A stretch of DNA of 64,000 nucleotides from an uncultured Eggerthellaceae bacterium (GTDB lineage Bacteria; Actinomycetota; Coriobacteriia; Coriobacteriales; Eggerthellaceae). The DNA lies in NCBI GenBank assembly GCA_944321455.1, contig CALULI010000002.1:62001-126000 (forward strand), read 5' to 3'. The translations under genes and the position numbers were made by a program. Shown here in pieces: positions 8,347 through 20,091 of this stretch. Below the pieces are notes generated by a model that was not told the DNA's origin, made no database searches, and worked only from the letters and a program-made list of their open reading frames with translations. Positions within the stretch are counted from its first letter, which is position 1. The number at the start of each line of letters is the position of its first letter.

Positions 8347-8497
8347 TCAACTTGATAGTACTAGCAAATATTGTTAGTAGGTTCTTAAAATACTGTTACC
8401 TCTATAATATGCAGCTATTTTATTTACATGTACGCCGTGTTGGACACATAATTTAAATGAATTGATTATCCTCAATTTATATTTAGAGGAGGTCACA

Positions 8498-9352
8498 ATG
8501 GGTTTAGACGCTTTTGTAAGATGTAATTGCTTCGAAGAACATAAACTTAAACCAGGACCTGTGCCTTACGAAGATTTATACATTGATGCTGACGGGTATC
8601 TTTCTTCTAGGAAGCTAGATTCAATGTGGCAAAAATACGACTTCGCTGGATTTGATGCACGGTACGGGGAACTCCAAGATCAGTTTATGGATTGGCGAGA
8701 ATCTTGCTGCGAACACGAAGATTGCAAATACTGTAATGAATGGGTGTCAAACTGGGCAGGTGTAATGCGTTTTAACTATCTTGTTGAAACTTTTGGCGGA
8801 AAAGAAAAGTATCCTCTCCTATCCACGTTGCTTCCAAGCGCAAACGGTGGTTATTATCCACTTGAAAAAGCAGAGGCGACACTACTTGAACTAGATGACT
8901 TTCTAAGCCATGTTGTCAAGCATGCTGAAACACGGCTGTTCAGAGCGGAAACCAACGAAATGATTCAATATATAGATAAAGAAAAGTCGCCCTGGTCAGA
9001 AATGATTATATCCTCTATTGATATCGCAGATGGTAAAGTTAAATTTACCGACTTCGCAAAGAAAGACACTTACTCTAATCACTTCAAAATCATCTTTTCG
9101 ACAGAAAAAGTAATTTCGCAAAAATATGGAGAAATTGGCATCTATGGGTGCGAAATTCATTTACTCGATCAAGGCAAAACTATTGTTTTGAGTAATTATT
9201 ATGGTTCTCGTCCTTCCATAATGGAATCTGAATATCTGTTCAAAACTGGACCAGCACGTTTTCTTTACGAAGGGAAATACCCCACAGGCGAACGAATTAA
9301 AAACTTACTAGTCGCCTCTTTAGAAACCGGAAATCCTATTGTGTGGTGTTAG
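8498..9352 (+). CDS. Hypothetical protein with Cys-rich N-terminal half
   Basis: 284 residues. An in-frame start exists at 8462, but AGAGGAGG seven bases before the ATG at 8498 fixes the start. The N-terminus MGLDAFVRCNCFEE and the CCEHEDCKYC cluster at about residue 70 give several paired Cys/His that could bind metal; there is no membrane helix or signal peptide. A TATAAT at 8403-8408 could be its -10 box. The next gene starts 4 nt after the stop, so the two form an operon. I do not recognise a characterised family and assign no function. Confidence 0.82.
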   Translation: MGLDAFVRCNCFEEHKLKPGPVPYEDLYIDADGYLSSRKLDSMWQKYDFAGFDARYGELQDQFMDWRESCCEHEDCKYCNEWVSNWAGVMRFNYLVETFGGKEKYPLLSTLLPSANGGYYPLEKAEATLLELDDFLSHVVKHAETRLFRAETNEMIQYIDKEKSPWSEMIISSIDIADGKVKFTDFAKKDTYSNHFKIIFSTEKVISQKYGEIGIYGCEIHLLDQGKTIVLSNYYGSRPSIMESEYLFKTGPARFLYEGKYPTGERIKNLLVASLETGNPIVWC

Positions 9353-9356
9353 AGCT

Positions 9357-10109
9357 ATGAGGAATAATATTATCTCGGACCCGCCATACGTAGAAGTCCC
9401 TATGCTAACGAACAGGGACCAGCGCATTCTAAATTGGCAAACCGTCTACAATAAACCAACCGTGAGCACGGCTGAAAAATGTGGCTGCTTTCACTGTGGT
9501 AGCACCTTTATCCCACGTGAAATCAAATCTTGGCTCAAGGAAGAAGACGGCCCAGAAACAGCACTTTGCCCTTATTGTTCTGACGAAAAAGTTATCATCG
9601 GAACACCAGAATTCCCGCTGAGCACTGCTCTCTTGAGTCTTCTGCATAAAGCATATTTCAATAACGAACTTGAAAAGCGACTTGAAAAATCTACATATGC
9701 GCCAGAATTCTCTGATGAAAATGACTATCTACGGAAAGGCGTCACATTTCTTTGCAAAGAAGACAGTAACGCAAAAATTGTTGGAAGAATTCGCCTTTTC
9801 CCAACGAGCTTAACTTCGAATGGATATATGAGCACTCACGATGGAACTGCCTGCAGAAACGTCGTAAAGAAATTTGGAGCTGGCACTGCTGGTGGAGTGG
9901 CAACCGTTGATGCTTACTATGACCCTGAGGGATATTTCTATTCAGATTTTATTACCGATTCAGGAGTGCGACTCCCCTTTGAGCCATTCAGCGGAGATGA
10001 AATAAATCTACTTGTTACTCTATCTGAACAGTATGGGAAAAATCTCAAAGCAGCGTTTGTAGAACCCAGCCCTTCTTTCGTTAATCTTTTTGTGAAAAGC
10101 TGCAAGTAA
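9357..10109 (+). CDS. Hypothetical zinc-ribbon-containing protein
   Basis: 250 residues from the ATG at 9357; an upstream TTG at 9339 overlaps the previous gene and is less likely. Near the N-terminus CGCFHCG and, about 35 residues later, LCPYCSDE form a four-Cys zinc-ribbon-like pair. The rest is soluble and mixed, with a Gly-rich KKFGAGTAGGVATVDAYYDPEG stretch. It is co-transcribed with the preceding unknown gene. The zinc site is inferred from cysteine spacing; function is unknown. Confidence 0.8.
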   Translation: MRNNIISDPPYVEVPMLTNRDQRILNWQTVYNKPTVSTAEKCGCFHCGSTFIPREIKSWLKEEDGPETALCPYCSDEKVIIGTPEFPLSTALLSLLHKAYFNNELEKRLEKSTYAPEFSDENDYLRKGVTFLCKEDSNAKIVGRIRLFPTSLTSNGYMSTHDGTACRNVVKKFGAGTAGGVATVDAYYDPEGYFYSDFITDSGVRLPFEPFSGDEINLLVTLSEQYGKNLKAAFVEPSPSFVNLFVKSCK

Positions 10110-10228: not shown

Positions 10229-12052
10229 CTATAACGAAAATAGATCCAATACTTTCGATACCAATAGCTCGGTACGTTCTTCAATGTCTTTTGCTGTCCA
10301 AAAATCATGACGTGCTACATCTTCGTTGATGTTTAACCCATTCAAATAACCAACTTGGTTACCGTATTTATCTTTTCTGTTTTTCTTATCTATAAATGAC
10401 AGATTGCTTAAGGTGCTGTTATATCCAGTTAAAGTCAGATTTCCAAGAGTGTGAACATGCTCATGTTGAATCTCTTCGGCTTTGGCTATGTCTCCATTAG
10501 CTATCATTTTCACCCAGCTGTCAGGGATATTGCGTCCTTGAGGCAAGATATGCTCAATCGTCCAAACATAATTTCCTGACTTATAGCGATCCCAAAGTCC
10601 TTTCATTTCTTTCGTAACTGAAGGTTTTGCAAGGGTCGCTAAAATAAACCTTACTGTATCAGGATTAGACTCATATACAGATCCCCGCAACTTGTTTTCA
10701 AAAACCTCATCAGACGAAGATACCGCGATTAAACGTTCGCGAACAAATAAAACCAGATCTTTTCCCTTTAGCTTCTTATCATCTAACTCTTCGATTGTTC
10801 GAATAAACAAGCGGGTCAAATCTCTTGTCGGAGGCGTATCAGTTAAATTTCTACGAACGAAAAATTTAGTGAGCAATGAACACACTTCTGCTATTTCAAC
10901 ATCATTCAAATTTAACTCAGTAGATCGTTTCATTAAATTCAATAAAAGCAGGTAAGACGGAACACCCTGAACGTTAGCTAAGTCAAAAAGCGAATCTTCT
11001 AAGATCTCAGCTATATCATCATCGCTAACACGAATAATTTTCGAGTAAATCTGAGCGTTACTAATTAGCCAATCTAATGTTGAAAAAGGATCATTCCCAA
11101 TCTGAGCCTCATAAATTGAAAGTAGGTTTGATTTGGTTGCCACTGCACCTAAAGGGAATTTAGCATCCCCTTTGACAAAGGGTAAATTCACATCCCTTCT
11201 GAAAGCATCATAACTTTGACGGAAGAAACGCTCTTGGGTTTTATAATCATCGCCCAGAAGCATTAACATATATTGCCATTTATCAAAATAATTATCTAAT
11301 TCTGCATCATTAGTTCCAGCAAGTTTTGCAAGCAGTGTGTTTTTGATTAAATCAACAGCAGTTAAAGGCGTACCTCTGTTGTTAAGCGACTCAAATAAAA
11401 CATAAGCATCGGAATGAGAAGAAACGCTAATTTGCACCAAGACTGACGAGTTGATCTTCTTTAGTAAATCTAGTGCCTCATTGATGAAATCTTCAGAATT
11501 ATCAATCTTTTGCAATATACGCTCATGGAAATAACGATAAGCACGGTATATTTTTCTTAACCCAGCCTTTTTTGGCTTTGAGCTTTGGTAATCTAGCCCA
11601 ACAAATTCTGAAAGCAGTGCGCGATAATCCTCTAGATTTTTACTTTGAACTTGAGGAACGACCTTTGTCATTCCCTTTTTACCCTTGAGCAATAAACGAT
11701 TTTTAAGATTTAAATACGTACTATATATTTCATCGTCCTCAAGAAAGTCATTTTTATGTTCTTTAAAAATCGAATAAAACGCGGTCAATAAGATGCTTAT
11801 TGTTGTAAGCCTCTGTTGACCATCAATAACTTCGAGTTCTGTAATTCCTGTTTCAGGGTCATGACCATGATCGATAACTATGATTGAGCCCAGAAAATAA
11901 CCTGTTGGGTTTTCCATGACATCGTCAAAAAGATTTTCCCAATCTTTAATTTTCCACGTATATTCACGCTGATATCGAGGTATCCTGAAAACCACAGGTG
12001 ACTCTGGATCCAATAAAGCGCTAATGGTTGGCTTTGCAACATTTTCTATCAT
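10229..12052 (-). CDS. DUF262/DUF1524 (GmrSD-like) nuclease
   Basis: 607 residues from the ATG at 12052, chosen because GAGGG lies seven bases upstream; an in-frame ATG at 12073 overlaps this site. The N-terminal DUF262 domain has FRIPRYQREYTW (about 23-33) and the nucleotide-handling IDGQQRLTT (about 76-84). The C-terminal DUF1524 HNH-like domain has EHILPQ (500-505) and LGNLTLTGYN. The architecture matches GmrSD-like type IV enzymes, which cut modified DNA using nucleoside triphosphate. It lies 86 nt downstream of the restriction helicase on the same strand, suggesting one defence island. Cleavage of modified DNA is inferred from family only. Confidence 0.9.
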   Translation of the reverse strand: MIENVAKPTISALLDPESPVVFRIPRYQREYTWKIKDWENLFDDVMENPTGYFLGSIIVIDHGHDPETGITELEVIDGQQRLTTISILLTAFYSIFKEHKNDFLEDDEIYSTYLNLKNRLLLKGKKGMTKVVPQVQSKNLEDYRALLSEFVGLDYQSSKPKKAGLRKIYRAYRYFHERILQKIDNSEDFINEALDLLKKINSSVLVQISVSSHSDAYVLFESLNNRGTPLTAVDLIKNTLLAKLAGTNDAELDNYFDKWQYMLMLLGDDYKTQERFFRQSYDAFRRDVNLPFVKGDAKFPLGAVATKSNLLSIYEAQIGNDPFSTLDWLISNAQIYSKIIRVSDDDIAEILEDSLFDLANVQGVPSYLLLLNLMKRSTELNLNDVEIAEVCSLLTKFFVRRNLTDTPPTRDLTRLFIRTIEELDDKKLKGKDLVLFVRERLIAVSSSDEVFENKLRGSVYESNPDTVRFILATLAKPSVTKEMKGLWDRYKSGNYVWTIEHILPQGRNIPDSWVKMIANGDIAKAEEIQHEHVHTLGNLTLTGYNSTLSNLSFIDKKNRKDKYGNQVGYLNGLNINEDVARHDFWTAKDIEERTELLVSKVLDLFSL

Positions 12053-12137
12053 GTAATGTCCCTCTAAATTCATTATTGAAAATAACTACCAAGTTAACAC
12101 TGTAATCTTATAGCTAGAGTTAAACGCCAATCGGTTT

Positions 12138-15100
12138 TTATTTCCTTGCAAAATAGCTATCAACCAGCTCAGGCAATACTCCATCCTTAGCTGCAGTAGT
12201 CGCATCAGCCTCAACAAAGTTGGTTGTTTCGTCTTTGAGCTTTTCATTAAAACCAAGGATATAATTAGTCGCAATAAGATAAATAATTCGCGTAGGCGCC
12301 ATCCCATAGACTTGATGTTGCAAGATATGACGAATACGTTTTTCTTTATCAGGAAACTCCGCAATAATCTTAGGGCTGTTATATAAACGCTTAACAATCT
12401 CAGTAATGTACAAACCAGACTTCATATATAAATCTGCAAATGTATTGGTAGAATCATCGAAGCAGCCAGGATTTTCCTTCTCTAACTCATCAACCATCTT
12501 CTTTACTACCCAACGTGGAGTAAAAATCTGATTATTCTTTTGAGGAGGAATGTAGTCGAAAATATCCTCAATATTTGATTCATCAAAGTAATTGGCTAGC
12601 TCTTCACGTTTGTTTAAGAACTGCTGAATAGAGTCATTAAACACTACTTCATTGAATAAATGACCTTCAAAATGCTTTTCTTCTCCCGTTGCCTCATCGT
12701 TATACATGCCGCCATCACGCAAGAAGCGGAATTGTTCTTCAGTAATGCCTGTCACTTCTTCGAATACGGAATCTTCGGTATAATCATCAAAATTATCTAG
12801 GCGAAGATCCCTGTCTCCATAAGCCATAATAAAGCTAGGTATTGTTCGCGCGAAGCCACGCAGATGCGCTCTTACCATATCCTCTACGGTATTCTTTTCT
12901 TCCTGTGCTTTAAATTCCTCGACTTTTTTAGTTACTTCTTTTGGCTGATTTTCAGAAGTGGCTTTGACCATATTTTGCATAGCGACATTAAGAGAGGAAA
13001 GTGCCTCACTGACTGATTGATTGTAATCATCTTGAGCTTGCTCTACCTCTTTAGAGGTTTGTGCTTCAGCAATACGTTTATCTCTTTCGATTTCAGCTAT
13101 GCGCTTGCTTTGCATGAAATCTGCCTCGATACATTTCGCTTCGCGATCTATGGCATTATTAGATTCTTTAACTAGCTGATTCTTCTTACTCTTCTTTAAT
13201 CCATATTCATCTACTGCAAAATCTATTACGTGATGCTCAATACTGCCTTTTAGAGCCTCTGCGACGCGACGGACATTCTTCTGGACATCAGCACTGTCTT
13301 CCGTCGGATCGATATCGCCCAACGGATCAAGTACTTCATCTTGAATTACTTCATAAACCTTATCGCCGAAAAGAGCCTTCGATTTGCCTATTACATATTC
13401 ATCAGGCAAAGATACATCACCGTACTCATCAACAGGAATCTCACCCATTGCATCCAAGGTATTTTGCTTAGCATCAAATGATTTATTATCGCTCGGATTT
13501 AACTTAGTGATTATTTCCGTTACTGCCGAAGGTGCAGAAAAGATATTCCCGATATTGTCGAATAGATAGTTAGACATAAATCCATGACGAACAACTTCAA
13601 CGCTCTTCAGGCGACGCGGAATAGAAAGCACTTCTTGAGCATCAATTTCGACCATTTTTCCTTCGCTATCTTCACCAATTACGGGGAAGAAGTTTAGGAG
13701 TTCACGAATATTATTCTTGTGATCTGCAGCAGTTCCTTTACCTCCTGCAGTGCTGGCGTTTAAATTGTTGGCAAATTCTTCGTAGACAATCAGCGTTCTT
13801 GCGGGGTCGAAATCAAACACATATGCACGTTCTTTTTGGACTCGTACTTTCTTGCCATCGATAAACGCGTCGGTTTCGTAAGGGTTTTGAACACGGAAAG
13901 CTGCCTGCATATATGCAGAAGGACTTTTCATGTTGGAAAGCATTAAAACTGCCGACCACTCAGGCACTGTCACACCGACAGTTAACTGACCAACCGATAA
14001 CGTGATAGTCTTATCGTTTTCATTGATTGCTTTTCGAACTTTATCGAAAGCTTTTTCAGCGGCATCATCCACATCAAGCTTGCCATCACCAGCAGCCAGA
14101 ACAATCTCGTAATCTTTAAAAATCGGATGCTCTTTGAGCATTTTAGCTAACGCTTTAGCGCTTGCAACTCGATTCAACAGCCATAGTGTGTGAGGAAGCT
14201 CACCGCGTAGTTCCTGGGTAGAAAAGGGATATTTTTCCTGAACGGTTAACGCATCCAAAAACTTCTCAACTGAATCTTTGTGCTTGAAGATTCCACGTTC
14301 ATCTGTTTCGAAAAATTCATTAAGATCGAAAGTAAAATCTACGTTTCTATCTTCAGAAATAGCAGCGCCTTTTGCTAATTCACCCTCAATCATAGGGGAC
14401 ATTTGGTAGGTGAACATCTCCAATCGTGGAAGTTGTTCGTAGGCGTTATGAGTTAAACCATTCCAGGATTCTTTGGCTTTCTGTTCGTCTACGTAAGACC
14501 AGTTAAAAATTTGATCCGCTTCAAATCTGCCATCAGCTAAAGCTTTGAAGGGAGTACCCGATAGATACAAAGTATGCTTTCTCTTGATGTTATCGAAAGC
14601 GCGTTCGGTCTTTAAGGTATCAACACCTTCTTGAGACTCATCAACAATAAGCAGATCAAATTCGTTTTCTGAAATCCACTTTAGTTTGTCGAAATTGCCG
14701 CCAAAGTATACGGAGCCTTTCAAACCTTGCAAGGATTCAAAAGCGATCATGTTTGGTTTTTCACCAGTAGGAGCGTTAAGACGAATCTTTAGATATTCAT
14801 CACGAGAAACAACACCAGCGCTTTTGCTTAGTGCATCATTTTCAGAAACAAAGCAATATTTACCTCGCCATCCGATAAACTTATTGAAGTCTTCCGCCCA
14901 AGAGTTAGCAATGGCAGGGCGGTTGGTTACAACAAGAACCATCTTGAAGTCCATTTGTTGGACTAAATCATAGGCAGTTAACGTCTTACCAAAGCGCGGT
15001 TTAGCATTCCATAGAAATTCAGTTCCGCCTTTGGCAAAATATGATTTAGTAAGATCAACCGCTTCTGCTTGTTCAGGCCGAAGCTCATATTCAAAATGCT

Positions 15101-15473
15101 CATCATCGGCAATTATATTTGTGCGCTGAGCGAATTCATTGAAATACATGTACGCAGGCGCAGGCTCAACATGAAACCATTCATTGTCTTCACTTTGCTC
15201 CTGCTCAATACCTTTATGACGCTTTAGGTAATTGTGAAAATTTTTATCCGTAAAATATTCGCCAGAGCCATCCTTGTACATGGCATTGTCTTTCCATTCA
15301 AGCTTGGCTTTAACGTCAACGGTATGCGTTTGCTGTTTAATACGATCTTCGACTGTCTGCTTAGCGGTATAGCCGATCTTTGTCCAACCATCATGCCTTT
15401 TTATCTCTGGCGTGGTATAGGCATAAATCATTGGAATGATTGGTGCTAACGGTTTAATTACAGGAGCGGCCAT
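12138..15473 (-). CDS. Restriction protein: GIY-YIG-like, helicase, partial methylase domains
   Basis: 1111 residues. Residues of about 15-45 (YAYTTPEIKRHDGWTKIGYT) look like a GIY-YIG/T5orf172-type nuclease start. A superfamily 2 helicase follows, with LRPEQ, the Walker A variant AKPRFGKT (157-164), DESQ (278-281), SGTPF and AAFRVQNP. A Lys/Glu-rich coiled coil spans about 780-870. From 983 to the end is a methylase-like segment (IFTPRWVVKKM, then DLYMKSGLYITEIV) with no NPPY catalytic motif. It ends 1 nt before the next gene's stop region and is co-oriented with the Eco57I-type methylase. I infer the motor/nuclease subunit of a restriction-modification system. The GIY-YIG call is the least certain part. 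Confidence 0.87.
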   Translation of the reverse strand: MAAPVIKPLAPIIPMIYAYTTPEIKRHDGWTKIGYTAKQTVEDRIKQQTHTVDVKAKLEWKDNAMYKDGSGEYFTDKNFHNYLKRHKGIEQEQSEDNEWFHVEPAPAYMYFNEFAQRTNIIADDEHFEYELRPEQAEAVDLTKSYFAKGGTEFLWNAKPRFGKTLTAYDLVQQMDFKMVLVVTNRPAIANSWAEDFNKFIGWRGKYCFVSENDALSKSAGVVSRDEYLKIRLNAPTGEKPNMIAFESLQGLKGSVYFGGNFDKLKWISENEFDLLIVDESQEGVDTLKTERAFDNIKRKHTLYLSGTPFKALADGRFEADQIFNWSYVDEQKAKESWNGLTHNAYEQLPRLEMFTYQMSPMIEGELAKGAAISEDRNVDFTFDLNEFFETDERGIFKHKDSVEKFLDALTVQEKYPFSTQELRGELPHTLWLLNRVASAKALAKMLKEHPIFKDYEIVLAAGDGKLDVDDAAEKAFDKVRKAINENDKTITLSVGQLTVGVTVPEWSAVLMLSNMKSPSAYMQAAFRVQNPYETDAFIDGKKVRVQKERAYVFDFDPARTLIVYEEFANNLNASTAGGKGTAADHKNNIRELLNFFPVIGEDSEGKMVEIDAQEVLSIPRRLKSVEVVRHGFMSNYLFDNIGNIFSAPSAVTEIITKLNPSDNKSFDAKQNTLDAMGEIPVDEYGDVSLPDEYVIGKSKALFGDKVYEVIQDEVLDPLGDIDPTEDSADVQKNVRRVAEALKGSIEHHVIDFAVDEYGLKKSKKNQLVKESNNAIDREAKCIEADFMQSKRIAEIERDKRIAEAQTSKEVEQAQDDYNQSVSEALSSLNVAMQNMVKATSENQPKEVTKKVEEFKAQEEKNTVEDMVRAHLRGFARTIPSFIMAYGDRDLRLDNFDDYTEDSVFEEVTGITEEQFRFLRDGGMYNDEATGEEKHFEGHLFNEVVFNDSIQQFLNKREELANYFDESNIEDIFDYIPPQKNNQIFTPRWVVKKMVDELEKENPGCFDDSTNTFADLYMKSGLYITEIVKRLYNSPKIIAEFPDKEKRIRHILQHQVYGMAPTRIIYLIATNYILGFNEKLKDETTNFVEADATTAAKDGVLPELVDSYFARK

Positions 15474-15474
15474 T

Positions 15475-17448
15475 TTAGTCCATCTCCTTTACATGGGACT
15501 CGATGAACTGAATCTCCTCTTCACTAAGTCCGTATTTCTTATAAAGCTGTTTGTCGATGTCAGATACAGACTGTAACCAGTCTATATCCGACATCGACGT
15601 AAAGTCTTGCAGCGGAACATATTTCCATTTTTTAGGAGGATTGTCCTGCGTGACTTTTAATATTCCAAGCATCACTCGACAGAATTTGGCCTTTATATAC
15701 TTCAACGCATTTTGCGCTTCTTGTTGAGTCTCAAAAGAACCTATGCTTATGAATGATTCCGTATGCCCGATTAAGGGCTGCCCGATTAAGGGCGTAGTAA
15801 GAACTTCTCCTAACGCACCCGAACCATTTGATTTAGGAACAAATATTTTCCATCTATCCAGATTATCTACCTTGTTAACATATTCTCTTTTTATGTATTT
15901 GTATGTTCGTTTTCCATTTTCACGACCATATATCTGAATGTATTCCTCATTGTCGTTTGGCAAATTATCAGTAAAAACTTGCGGTAAGGTTTCAAATATA
16001 TTGGTTGCCATATCGTAATCGTGGCCATCGCTTAGGGCATCACGAGCTTCAGGAAAGTCTCTATGCATTTCATCGGTGAGTCGATAAACCGTTCGAGACC
16101 TTACGATTTCAGAGAAAGATTCAAAATCGTCCTTAGAAGAAACTTTTTTTAATATAGAATTTAATTCTTCAAAAGGTGTGAATGTCTCGATTGGCCCATA
16201 ATTTCTATCTAAATCGCGATATGTAATAGCAATACCGCCTTTAATGTCTTGATTCGGGAAGATAGTTCTAGAATCAACGCTATAGTCAAGAACTTTAAAA
16301 TGCACGTCATTTAGCATTTTTTTATTCCATGCAGAAGGCGTACTTCCAGCATTGAATAAAAATCTAGCAGGATGGATTAATTCAACTTTTCTCGAGACCT
16401 CATACGCACCATCCATAAATCTGTGATATACAGGCGGAGCGAAGTTTTTTTGATCGCCGACAGACTCTTCCTGATATGGCGGATTACCAATCACAAAATC
16501 AAATTTCATTTTTGTTCTCCCAAGCTGCATGTCGTTATATTCCAGCTCTGAATTATTTGACCAGTCATATATTTTAGCCAAAATCGCCTCGTGATTATTG
16601 GCTTCATCTGGTATTTCTTCGGTTTGAGTAAGTAAATCAAAAATGCTAGGTTGATAATAAGATTCATCTAGCGCTCTAAACGGTACGTAACCTGTCAGAC
16701 CGTCCATCTGCCAAAAATTCCAACTGATAATATTGGCAAGTTTTTTAAGATCGGCTGTTCTATATGACTCATATCCAGCTTCCTGAATAGCATCTTCTAA
16801 AGTTCTCAGAACATTAATTCGAGCGATGAGGAGATTGTCGCCTTGATATTCATACCCATACACAGATTCAAGTGCTTCTTTTGCCCATTTTTTCCAAGTA
16901 TCGCGGGAAGAAGCAATTTCTTTCACTACGGCAAGTTTTTTATCTAGGATCCCAATTCTTTCATTGAAAGGAACCACGGTTCCGTCTGCTGCATCGTATC
17001 TATTAACAATGAATGGAGCTTCGCCGCAAGTTATCTCTAATCGCTTAGAGCGAATGTATTCACGCTTCTTGTTTACGGTATCAAGATCTTCGGAAGTCCA
17101 ATCATTTAACTTATCTGCTTCATTAACCATGAATTCGCAAATCCACGTTGGTGTAAAAACTTCGGCAAAGCTTTTAGTTAAAGATGCTTGGTCCTCTACT
17201 GCTTTTTCTGCACGCGTTTTTATAACGCCAATGTTTTGACCAGTTATCGCTTCTTTTACAATTTCGGACTTCGGAGCATAATTAACACCACGATCTACAT
17301 GAGCTGATGTTGCCCAAACAATATTGTTCCCAGTTGATCTATCACAAAGCAAAACATCGAGAACGCCATTTTTCGCATAGCGCTCGATGTCTTCAGCAAA
17401 ATTAATTTTTATGTTCGTTAATGTTTCCAAAAAAACAATGACTCTCAA
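15475..17448 (-). CDS. Eco57I-type adenine-N6 DNA methyltransferase
   Basis: 657 residues. EVFTPTWICEFMV (about 96-108) is the methylase motif X region; RLEITCGEAPF (136-146) stands where motif I normally lies; FVIGNPPYQ (318-326) is the catalytic motif IV. The remaining 330 residues would hold the target-recognition domain. It methylates adenine in a recognition site, protecting host DNA. No ATG is available: the first start is TTG at 17448, with another TTG 18 nt later just after a run of seven T. The stop abuts the start of the helicase gene, so the two subunits are translationally close. Confidence 0.87.
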   Translation of the reverse strand: MRVIVFLETLTNIKINFAEDIERYAKNGVLDVLLCDRSTGNNIVWATSAHVDRGVNYAPKSEIVKEAITGQNIGVIKTRAEKAVEDQASLTKSFAEVFTPTWICEFMVNEADKLNDWTSEDLDTVNKKREYIRSKRLEITCGEAPFIVNRYDAADGTVVPFNERIGILDKKLAVVKEIASSRDTWKKWAKEALESVYGYEYQGDNLLIARINVLRTLEDAIQEAGYESYRTADLKKLANIISWNFWQMDGLTGYVPFRALDESYYQPSIFDLLTQTEEIPDEANNHEAILAKIYDWSNNSELEYNDMQLGRTKMKFDFVIGNPPYQEESVGDQKNFAPPVYHRFMDGAYEVSRKVELIHPARFLFNAGSTPSAWNKKMLNDVHFKVLDYSVDSRTIFPNQDIKGGIAITYRDLDRNYGPIETFTPFEELNSILKKVSSKDDFESFSEIVRSRTVYRLTDEMHRDFPEARDALSDGHDYDMATNIFETLPQVFTDNLPNDNEEYIQIYGRENGKRTYKYIKREYVNKVDNLDRWKIFVPKSNGSGALGEVLTTPLIGQPLIGHTESFISIGSFETQQEAQNALKYIKAKFCRVMLGILKVTQDNPPKKWKYVPLQDFTSMSDIDWLQSVSDIDKQLYKKYGLSEEEIQFIESHVKEMD

Positions 17449-17489
17449 TATTTCTATAATCTAATTCTAAAAATTATTTCTTCTTCTGT

Positions 17490-18059
17490 TCAATTTAATT
17501 TATAGATTGCTTTCGCAATTTCCCGTAAATCTTTCTCGATTTTTTCAATGGCAATCTTTACTTGATGATTATCGCTTTTCACAATCAAGGATCCGATCAA
17601 AGATGAATAATCTAGAATGAATGTTTCTTGCATTTTCTTTCTACTTCGGATGAATCCCTTAACGTAATAAGAAACAACCACTGGAGACGCTTTGCTCTCC
17701 AACAATTTTCCACTTGGTCCAGAAATCACTGTAGAACGAATACCTCCTGGAACAAGAACAGGGATCCCTCTTTCAATGAACGTATCTTTTATATAATTCA
17801 CTGTCTTCTCATCATATATTGAACTGTCAATTTCTGAAAAAGAAAGTTCGAATGCAACACCTTTACCGGTATTTTCTACAATGAATAAAAACACATTTTT
17901 ATCAGGATCAGCTTCAATGTGTACAACTATCTGCGGAAGTCCGGATTGATAGTATGCTCGAACTGTGATGAAAAGCGCTACTAACGAAACTACAAGAGCC
18001 CCAAAAGTTGCAATATTAGCAACGATTTCTGTTATAAATTCCCAGTCAATATCAATCAT
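17490..18059 (-). CDS. Small membrane-anchored protein in restriction island
   Basis: 189 residues with one N-terminal membrane helix at about 14-36 and a soluble remainder rich in beta-like strands (PQIVVHIEADPDKNVFLFIVENTGKG) and a C-terminal helix. A GGAG four bases before the ATG supports the start. It is the first gene of the minus-strand run leading into the methylase, with 41 nt between them. Family not recognised. Its position suggests an accessory or regulatory partner of the restriction system, but nothing in the sequence shows a mechanism. Confidence 0.78.
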   Translation of the reverse strand: MIDIDWEFITEIVANIATFGALVVSLVALFITVRAYYQSGLPQIVVHIEADPDKNVFLFIVENTGKGVAFELSFSEIDSSIYDEKTVNYIKDTFIERGIPVLVPGGIRSTVISGPSGKLLESKASPVVVSYYVKGFIRSRKKMQETFILDYSSLIGSLIVKSDNHQVKIAIEKIEKDLREIAKAIYKLN

Positions 18060-18154
18060 ATTACTCCATTACCAGACAACAAAGTTAAATAGCAAGATGC
18101 GCTATGTGTTCTGATCGTTTATTCGAAACGATATATCACTACATCTGCTGATAA

Positions 18155-18208
18155 ATAGCTACAATTAATAATTAGCGAAAACGTTCTTATACATTTTATT
18201 GTAGCTAT
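18155..18208. promoter_or_regulatory. 11-bp inverted repeat between divergent genes
   Basis: ATAGCTACAAT at 18155-18165 and its exact complement at 18198-18208 are spaced 32 nt apart, in the gap between the divergent 18059 and 18298 genes. This is a good place for a shared operator or a cruciform; no regulator gene is obvious nearby. Confidence 0.5.
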
Positions 18209-18238
18209 TATCATGGTAGTAATACTGTCAGCTTTAAT

Positions 18239-18257
18239 CCTTAGCTGCCAGCTAAGG
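18239..18257 (+). promoter_or_regulatory. Leader hairpin before the 400-residue gene
   Basis: CCTTAGCT and AGCTAAGG form a perfect 8-bp stem around GCC, followed by a T-rich stretch, about 40 nt before the start codon at 18298. It could terminate or attenuate transcription into that gene. Confidence 0.5.
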
Positions 18258-18297
18258 ACGTTTGTTTTTCTCTGTTAATAAGCAAAGGCTATAACCA

Positions 18298-19500
18298 ATG
18301 AATGAAAAGAACCCTATTCTGTCTAACAATCCAAATGAAATTACTCCTTTAGATCTTCATTTAGCTCCAGAAGATATCGAAATTTCAGTTGATAACGTCT
18401 TCAAACTTCCCTTTGATCAGATTCCAGCATTAGGAACCGCATTTGCATCATTACCTGAACAATTTCGGACCATTACTTCAACCGCTTCAGGACTGACAGG
18501 GTTTATGCCTGTAGATAAATTCGGAACTCCGCTAGACCCTAGTATTTTGTTTTACGCACACAATGGAGTTGGCGTAGTCGGCAGCTTTATGGAACAAAAC
18601 GGAAATTTAAACGTTGCACGCTGGGTTGAGTTAAATGGGCCCCAAGCGGCAACAACCACTATCCCCTACAACCCAGCATTACTTTTCATGGCTGTTGCTC
18701 TTGCTCAAGTAAATCAAAAGCTAGATTCCATTCAAGAAACGCAAGAAGAAATGTTTGAATACCTAAAGCAGAAAGACAAGGCTGCTATTCATGGAAATAT
18801 TCAAGCACTAAATAATGTTTTATTAAATTACAAGTTCAACTGGGATAACGAACTGTATATCAAAAACACTCATATGAAAATTCTTGATGTAATTCAAGAA
18901 ACTGACCAACAAATAGTGCACTTACGCGCACAAATTAAATCCAAACTGGAGGATAAAAAATTCCTTCAAAGTCGCATAAGCGTTAATCATCAGATCAATG
19001 ATTTAGTAAATTTGCTTAAAGACTATCAACTAGCAAACTATGCTTACTCATATGCTTCTTTCCTAGAGCCCATGCTTAGTAAGAATTTCAAAGAAGATTA
19101 TTTAAACCTTATAGAGCATCGCCTATCTGAATACTCAATTAAATTCCGTAAATTATATTCTGAGTGCTATTCGATAATCGAAAAGAACCTTTCAGGATCA
19201 ATAGATAAAAATATCTTGAAAGGTGTTTCCTTCGCAAGTAAAAAACTCGGAAACGCCGTTGCAAAAACACCTTTAGGTAAAGCCTCTCCGTTAGATGAAG
19301 CACTCTTAAAGGCAAGTGACGAAGTACAAGATTTCAATGAAGATCAGTCAACAGGGATGCTTAAAAAACTTCAGGCTGCCAAAGATCCAAATGTTGCTGT
19401 ATTTCAACAAACTATTTCTAAACTTAACCAATTGCATAATACGCCCATGCAGCTAGCAGCAGACAAAGATAACTTGTATGTGATTCCGCAAATCGCTTAA
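18298..19500 (+). CDS. Unknown 400-residue coiled-coil protein
   Basis: No family recognised. The first 140 residues are mixed and hydrophobic in places (SGLTGFMPVDKFG, NPALLFMAVALAQVNQKLDSI). Residues of about 150-330 are strongly helical, with long Lys/Glu/Gln runs that suggest coiled coils. There is no signal peptide or clear membrane helix. The gene is divergent from the restriction run, with an inverted repeat and a leader hairpin in its upstream region, so it may be tightly controlled. Its place between a membrane protein and an ABC-F gene suggests an island cargo gene, possibly defence related; that is inference from context. Confidence 0.78.
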   Translation: MNEKNPILSNNPNEITPLDLHLAPEDIEISVDNVFKLPFDQIPALGTAFASLPEQFRTITSTASGLTGFMPVDKFGTPLDPSILFYAHNGVGVVGSFMEQNGNLNVARWVELNGPQAATTTIPYNPALLFMAVALAQVNQKLDSIQETQEEMFEYLKQKDKAAIHGNIQALNNVLLNYKFNWDNELYIKNTHMKILDVIQETDQQIVHLRAQIKSKLEDKKFLQSRISVNHQINDLVNLLKDYQLANYAYSYASFLEPMLSKNFKEDYLNLIEHRLSEYSIKFRKLYSECYSIIEKNLSGSIDKNILKGVSFASKKLGNAVAKTPLGKASPLDEALLKASDEVQDFNEDQSTGMLKKLQAAKDPNVAVFQQTISKLNQLHNTPMQLAADKDNLYVIPQIA

Positions 19501-19713: not shown

Positions 19714-20091
19714 TTATCCACGTTTTGATCCCTGGCGAGAAATACCGCCTTTATGACCAGAAGCTTTATTGGGACCCATTCCCTTCTGAGCACGTGAATT
19801 CAATCCCGCTTTGCCAGGCTGTACATTCCAGCCTTGGGCGCATGCTTTCTTGAATGCTTTTCTGTTCAGTTGTTGATTGATCTGATCCCACGTGGGTTTA
19901 TTGCAAGATGCTTTCTTAAAGCGTCCATTAGAATCCTGCGCACGAGCGTTAGAATCCTGAGCGCGAGCGGTAACGCCCTGCATGCGAACGTTAGTATTTT
20001 TCGCACAAACATTGCTATCTTGTAAGTGGGCGTTAACGTCTTTCGCACGAGCACTACTATCCGAATTTGACGTATTTGATTTAGTACTCAT
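19714..20091 (-). CDS. Small basic protein with seven heptapeptide repeats
   Basis: 125 residues. Residues 12-60 are seven tandem 7-residue units of the type SNARAQD, encoded by seven 21-bp DNA units at 19912-20058. The C-terminal part is strongly basic (WDQINQQLNRKAFKKACAQGW, then a Gly/Lys/Arg-rich tail), suggesting nucleic acid binding. AAGGGGG precedes the ATG by about a dozen bases. The family is not recognised. Translation is probable rather than certain, because the repeat looks like the non-coding arrays elsewhere in this window. Confidence 0.6.
   Translation of the reverse strand: MSTKSNTSNSDSSARAKDVNAHLQDSNVCAKNTNVRMQGVTARAQDSNARAQDSNGRFKKASCNKPTWDQINQQLNRKAFKKACAQGWNVQPGKAGLNSRAQKGMGPNKASGHKGGISRQGSKRG

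Follow-up and report, generated by a model that had tools for sequence, protein, structure and literature searches.

Setting of the locus

The locus described here raises the question whether five adjacent genes of an uncultured Eggerthellaceae bacterium, encoding a GmrSD-type nuclease, a helicase-nuclease, an N6-adenine methylase, a one-helix membrane protein and a helical 400-residue protein, form a single defence system or a restriction-modification (R-M) core with unrelated neighbours. The whole stretch of DNA that was analysed, here called the window, comprises 64,000 nucleotides (C2:62001-126000) of a genome of 1.55 Mb, from a family to which Adlercreutzia and Slackia relatives also belong; positions are those of the window unless a locus number (L) precedes them. 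Coordinates and strands of all five genes agreed with the open reading frames (ORFs) of the window. The GC content between about 8 and 20 kb is 0.36-0.42, compared with mostly 0.46-0.52 (about 0.48) elsewhere in the window, and this stretch is a compositionally foreign low-GC island. A first-pass annotation had proposed a composite restriction island, which is supported, and the DUF262/DUF1524 nuclease, the GIY-YIG-like/helicase protein and the Eco57I-type methylase that it named were all recovered as Pfam matches.

A probable remnant of the 3′ end of ygiQ (19720..19800, minus strand; a 27-aa match with 67% identity, E 3.5e-4) lies at the right edge of the island, and no second ygiQ match was present elsewhere in the same genome. 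Since only this C-terminal remnant is found, while a same-genus relative (L092) retains ygiQ approximately 8 kb from the dap dehydrogenase gene in matching order and orientation, the sequences suggest that the body of ygiQ was lost at this edge. The remnant lies in a region (19714-20091) that is read as a low-complexity ORF of 125 aa, the C-terminus of which matches the end of ygiQ. An empty-site comparison within the genus located the dap dehydrogenase in two relatives, in both with other genes around it and no ABC-F gene. Two more ORFs of the island (8462-10109) encode proteins of 296 and 256 aa, the latter with Cys-rich, zinc-ribbon-like motifs; neither gave a family match.

Helicase-nuclease and methylase

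The three enzyme genes are all located on the minus strand, with gaps of 1 nt between methylase and helicase genes and of 64 nt between helicase and GmrSD genes. The helicase-nuclease (1111 aa, 12138..15473) combines a GIY-YIG domain of the T5orf172 family (residues 16-105, 15159..15428; Pfam E 1.5e-4) and an SF2 helicase, the N-terminal half of which is recognised as ResIII (residues 129-309, 14547..15089; E 5e-12), in one chain. The GIY-YIG motifs IYAYTTP, KIGYT, RIKQQ and EWF are well conserved among the aligned close relatives, with L067 diverging. Full-length relatives with 48-53% identity were found in Actinomycetota, Treponema, Enterococcus and Pediococcus, and the gene is present in 15 of 138 Eggerthellaceae genomes. 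A search of the PDB yielded no useful sequence match for either the helicase or the methylase protein.

The partial methylase that had been proposed for the C-terminus of this protein was confirmed by blastp, in which residues 930-1111 aligned with the N-terminal part of methylases encoded as separate genes in related loci (E 1e-15 to 3e-6). In the alignment the segment, called lobe B, covers residues 959-1111 (12141..12599, minus strand), and the homologous region constitutes the first ~100 residues of free-standing B-C methylases of 500-600 aa in other Actinomycetota. The separate Eco57I-type N6-adenine methylase (657 aa, 15475..17448, with TTG as the probable start codon) was identified by Pfam (E 7e-17), PADLOC and alignment.

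Alignments of the relatives distinguish three methylase modules. Module A has an FTP motif, a modified motif I (EITCGEAPF) and the acidic YGYEYQGDN; module B has FTP (motif X), the motif I FADLYMKSG (FADLYMKSGLY in the window) and YGMAPT, and is without NPPY; module C contains NPPY and the target recognition part. The 657-aa protein consists of an A lobe (approximately residues 1-308) and a C lobe with NPPY (approximately residues 309-657), and the PADLOC 'Type II methyltransferase' models PDLC03390 (A) and PDLC03375 (C) correspond to these two halves. A direct homology of the A and B lobes of the window type was considered as well, and a profile comparison gave no match; weak similarity to the B profile was seen only for some A lobes of the other class (4e-6, 1e-4).

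The modules are joined in various ways. An A-C methylase next to a helicase with a B lobe is found in the window and in several Eggerthellaceae (L058, L060, L062, L063, L065), and three separate genes for A, C and helicase-B are present in L059, L061, L064 and in Bifidobacterium (L004). A Pediococcus plasmid (L005) encodes A and a helicase-B-C protein, and Enterococcus plasmids (among them L003) have helicase-B-C beside a small gene annotated as N-6 DNA methylase, probably A. Separate genes for A, B-C and the helicase occur in the wider Actinomycetota (L069, L110, L111, L112, L114, L116). In Treponema, C and helicase-B genes were seen, and any A gene would lie past the end of the sequence read. 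Because the fusion partner of C is A in some genomes but B in others, the re-splitting and re-fusing of the three lobes across phyla argues that the methylase and the helicase-nuclease are very likely parts of a single enzyme. We found no description of this A/B/C lobe arrangement in the open-access literature. The re-fusions make a split methylase, with two front lobes and one catalytic lobe, accessible to testing.

Comparison with known restriction systems

Helicase and methylase proteins map onto pieces of one PADLOC 'Type IIG' model, PDLC03626 (model match, E 5e-24), a fused helicase-methylase of 1359 aa with the order helicase, B lobe, C lobe and with a separate M subunit (PDLC03390). The Pediococcus plasmid has this layout with a separate A, and the Enterococcus plasmids probably have it too. 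The window differs in that C is fused to A and not to B, so that a single chain holds the whole methylase and an extra lobe is left on the helicase; its helicase chain carries lobe B only and no C lobe with NPPY of the PDLC03626 type. The DnmA-YeeB-YeeC proteins of Bacillus subtilis, with homologues in Vibrio crassostreae, likewise comprise an N6-adenine methylase, an SF2 helicase and a T5orf172 GIY-YIG domain and are located on an island, but the methylase is MmeI-like, and helicase and GIY-YIG reside on separate proteins (PMC9973331). Type ISP enzymes such as LlaGI and LlaBIII, like the window, couple nuclease, SF2 motor, methylase and target recognition; they are, however, single chains with an Mrr-family nuclease, whereas the window has two chains and a GIY-YIG domain and thus does not belong to Type ISP. 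Among the window proteins scanned there was no HsdS and no HsdR_N domain, as would be expected for Type I R-M, and no PglZ or BrxL match that could accompany a PglX of the BREX type. The R-M core is of a known general kind, with a distinct arrangement of lobes and a commonly linked GmrSD protein.

We consider it probable, from the gene content and the homologies, that the island encodes an ATP-dependent, sequence-specific R-M enzyme formed by the methylase and the GIY-YIG-helicase, followed by a GmrSD-type modification-dependent nuclease, with the membrane and coiled-coil genes as accessories that move independently. The C lobe with NPPY and target recognition would cooperate with lobe A, its neighbour in the 657-aa protein, and probably also with lobe B of the helicase protein, so that methylation and restriction would share one recognition module. 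An unmethylated site would presumably activate the helicase motor and lead to cleavage by the GIY-YIG domain, and at methylated host sites the helicase-nuclease would stay silent. Several observations count against this model. Motif I of the window's lobe A is modified and lobe B is without the acidic motif II residue, so that either lobe may be the one that binds AdoMet. The profile comparison of the window-type lobes A and B gave no homology, and dnmA-yeeB-yeeC of B. subtilis, a set of similar kind, did not restrict the phages tested (PMC9973331).

The GmrSD-type neighbour

The 614-aa protein (10229..12073, minus strand) contains both domains of the type IV GmrSD enzymes, which cleave modified (glucosylated hmC) DNA, namely DUF262/GmrSD_N (Pfam E 3e-37) and DUF1524/GmrSD_C (E 1e-17), and is classified by PADLOC as Orf5/HEC-06/SspE-like; DUF262 relatives have solved structures in the PDB. 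GmrSD proteins embedded in or beside R-M loci are documented, including RloF and TgvAB in Type I loci (PMC4619093, PMC11411939), and the phages on which TgvAB acts from within its Type I locus are hypermodified (PMC11411939). As with RloF and TgvAB, a DUF262+DUF1524 protein lies beside R-M genes in the window, but these are of the helicase/GIY-YIG kind. The protein probably cuts phage DNA carrying a base modification against which the R-M enzyme would be powerless.

Of the 23 actinobacterial loci read with flanks, 10 have a DUF262 gene linked to the R-M genes (L058, L059, L061, L063-L065, L069, L107, L108, L114). The linked proteins fall into divergent groups that are only ~25% identical to that of the window, compared with 46-56% identity of the helicases in close relatives. 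Since the DUF262 proteins are far more divergent than the helicases, their linkage is better explained by a complement that was recruited repeatedly than by an obligate subunit.

Other genes were noticed beside the related R-M genes. A three-gene block encoding proteins of 437 aa, 403 aa (ParB-like, by eye) and 650 aa (an SNF2-type helicase) directly follows the helicase gene in L060 (L060:11616-16057), also in L061 and L108 and in part in L065; a DUF262 gene comes next after this block in L061, L065 and L108. In L059 (L059:7191-8261) and L062 (L062:11567-12637) a gene for a DUF1016/YhcG-like nuclease, named by its sequence, is located directly upstream of the helicase gene.

The two additional genes are not conserved with the restriction genes

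The membrane protein gene (189 aa, 17490..18059, minus strand) and the divergently oriented gene for the helical protein (400 aa, 18298..19500, plus strand) had been suggested in the first-pass annotation to add an effector layer to the restriction genes. To such a dedicated five-gene system we assign very little probability. The five genes are adjacent, and the membrane gene is co-directional with the methylase gene and lies 41 nt upstream of it, so that both are possibly co-transcribed. The five-gene set was, however, seen in this genome only: neither extra gene is present in any of the 23 related actinobacterial loci that were fetched with flanks, 9 of which are closely related and complete, nor in any of the four plasmid loci. 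Both extra families occur without window-type R-M genes everywhere else they were seen. The neighbourhood survey contradicts a conserved five-gene set, and by the criterion that the first-pass annotation itself had set, the suggested effector layer is not supported. Helicase and coiled-coil genes are found together in three of 138 Eggerthellaceae genomes, compared with ~1.5 expected by chance, and in two of these three they are on different contigs. Both families are associated with defence genes and phages in their own right, and we assume that they are mobile accessories of defence islands or prophages that stand beside the R-M genes by chance.

The membrane protein family

The protein has a single strong hydrophobic helix (residues 12-30), as the first-pass annotation had described, followed by a soluble domain, and a domain search gave no significant family match. 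Its homologues have the N-terminal helix and the motifs NxG and LxPGxxR in common. Seven homologues were found outside the window, and no relatives in the plasmid and phage collections searched. Three are located in or beside methylase-based systems. In a BREX locus (L127:6937-7503) pglZ and pglX are followed, after a gap of 2 nt, by the membrane gene, which overlaps the start of brxL; in a PstI-like R-M operon (L126) the membrane gene is third after the methylase and the BsuBI/PstI endonuclease; and in L056 a frame-broken copy lies beside hsdM. Another three are located in prophages: one adjoins an integrase gene with a repressor gene near (L057), one lies between a directly adjacent CI-like HTH gene and a serine recombinase gene (L128) and was also recovered from a viral contig (L132), and one is near phage replication genes (L129). 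The seventh, close to the end of its contig, matches over 36 residues only. Window-type R-M genes were not found near any homologue whose flanks were read.

These neighbourhoods would be compatible with a true accessory of methylation-based defence in general, in which a tethered domain adds a second layer that may block DNA entry, sense arrested infection or restrain the restriction enzyme. Four of the eight copies, that of the window included, are in or directly beside four different kinds of methylase-based system (the window R-M, BREX, BsuBI/PstI R-M and hsdM), and the shared helix and motifs extend across the copies. A random 20-gene neighbourhood holds 0.56 defence genes (PMC9973331), from which a chance of direct adjacency of ~5-6% can be estimated as against three of seven homologues, a tiny sample compared with a yardstick from other genomes. 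We nevertheless regard such an accessory role as unlikely: no more than eight copies are known, of which one is a fragment at a contig edge, another, the one next to hsdM, is broken and three belong to prophages, and the gene is absent from every relative of the window R-M system. Defence islands attract cargo, and the adjacency may thus be hitch-hiking. It is to the same degree doubtful that the 189-aa protein represents an undescribed family of membrane-anchored accessories common to GIY-YIG helicase R-M, BREX, Type I and PstI-like Type II systems and to prophage immunity regions, which would link modification-restriction to the membrane. Of all observations on the island, the recurrence of this family with methylase-based systems is the one that deserves to be followed, as the presence of such a gene inside BREX and R-M operons would lead one to ask whether restriction can be coupled to the membrane.

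The coiled-coil protein family

The divergent ORF of 400 residues is present, and the coiled coil that had been proposed for its protein is a candidate feature, residues 126-322 being mostly helical in an AlphaFold model of low confidence (pLDDT 51.5). The family occurs in 14 of 138 Eggerthellaceae genomes (about 10%) with a patchy distribution and in seven of 396 Actinomycetota, all of the same order, and is centred on the Coriobacteriia; it is present also on two viral contigs and, among the plasmid and phage collections searched, in one weakly matching phage record. A profile search of contigs with a narrower alignment gave six loci, of which the named ones are all from Eggerthellaceae.

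A solitary antiphage gene that is carried by islands and prophages is a possible function of this protein, to which we give somewhat less than even chances. Besides the patchy distribution, the neighbours point in this direction: homologues lie directly beside Lamassu genes (L042), an Abi_2 gene (L049) and the gene of a MutH/Sau3AI-like endonuclease (L044, L047; a C5 methylase gene and phage genes accompany it in L047), an Mrr gene is nearby in L043, and in L086 the homologue is found among phage structural genes. The enrichment of defence neighbours is suggestive only, L044 and L047 representing one genome, and the homologues of L048, L050 and L053 have no recognisable defence neighbour. Domain and PDB searches, moreover, gave no significant family match and no solved relative. 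In three further loci (L051:2549-4981, L054:2072-3702 and L052:1167-3697) the homologues adjoin genes for DUF4230 membrane proteins, with which they are co-directional in two of the three cases.
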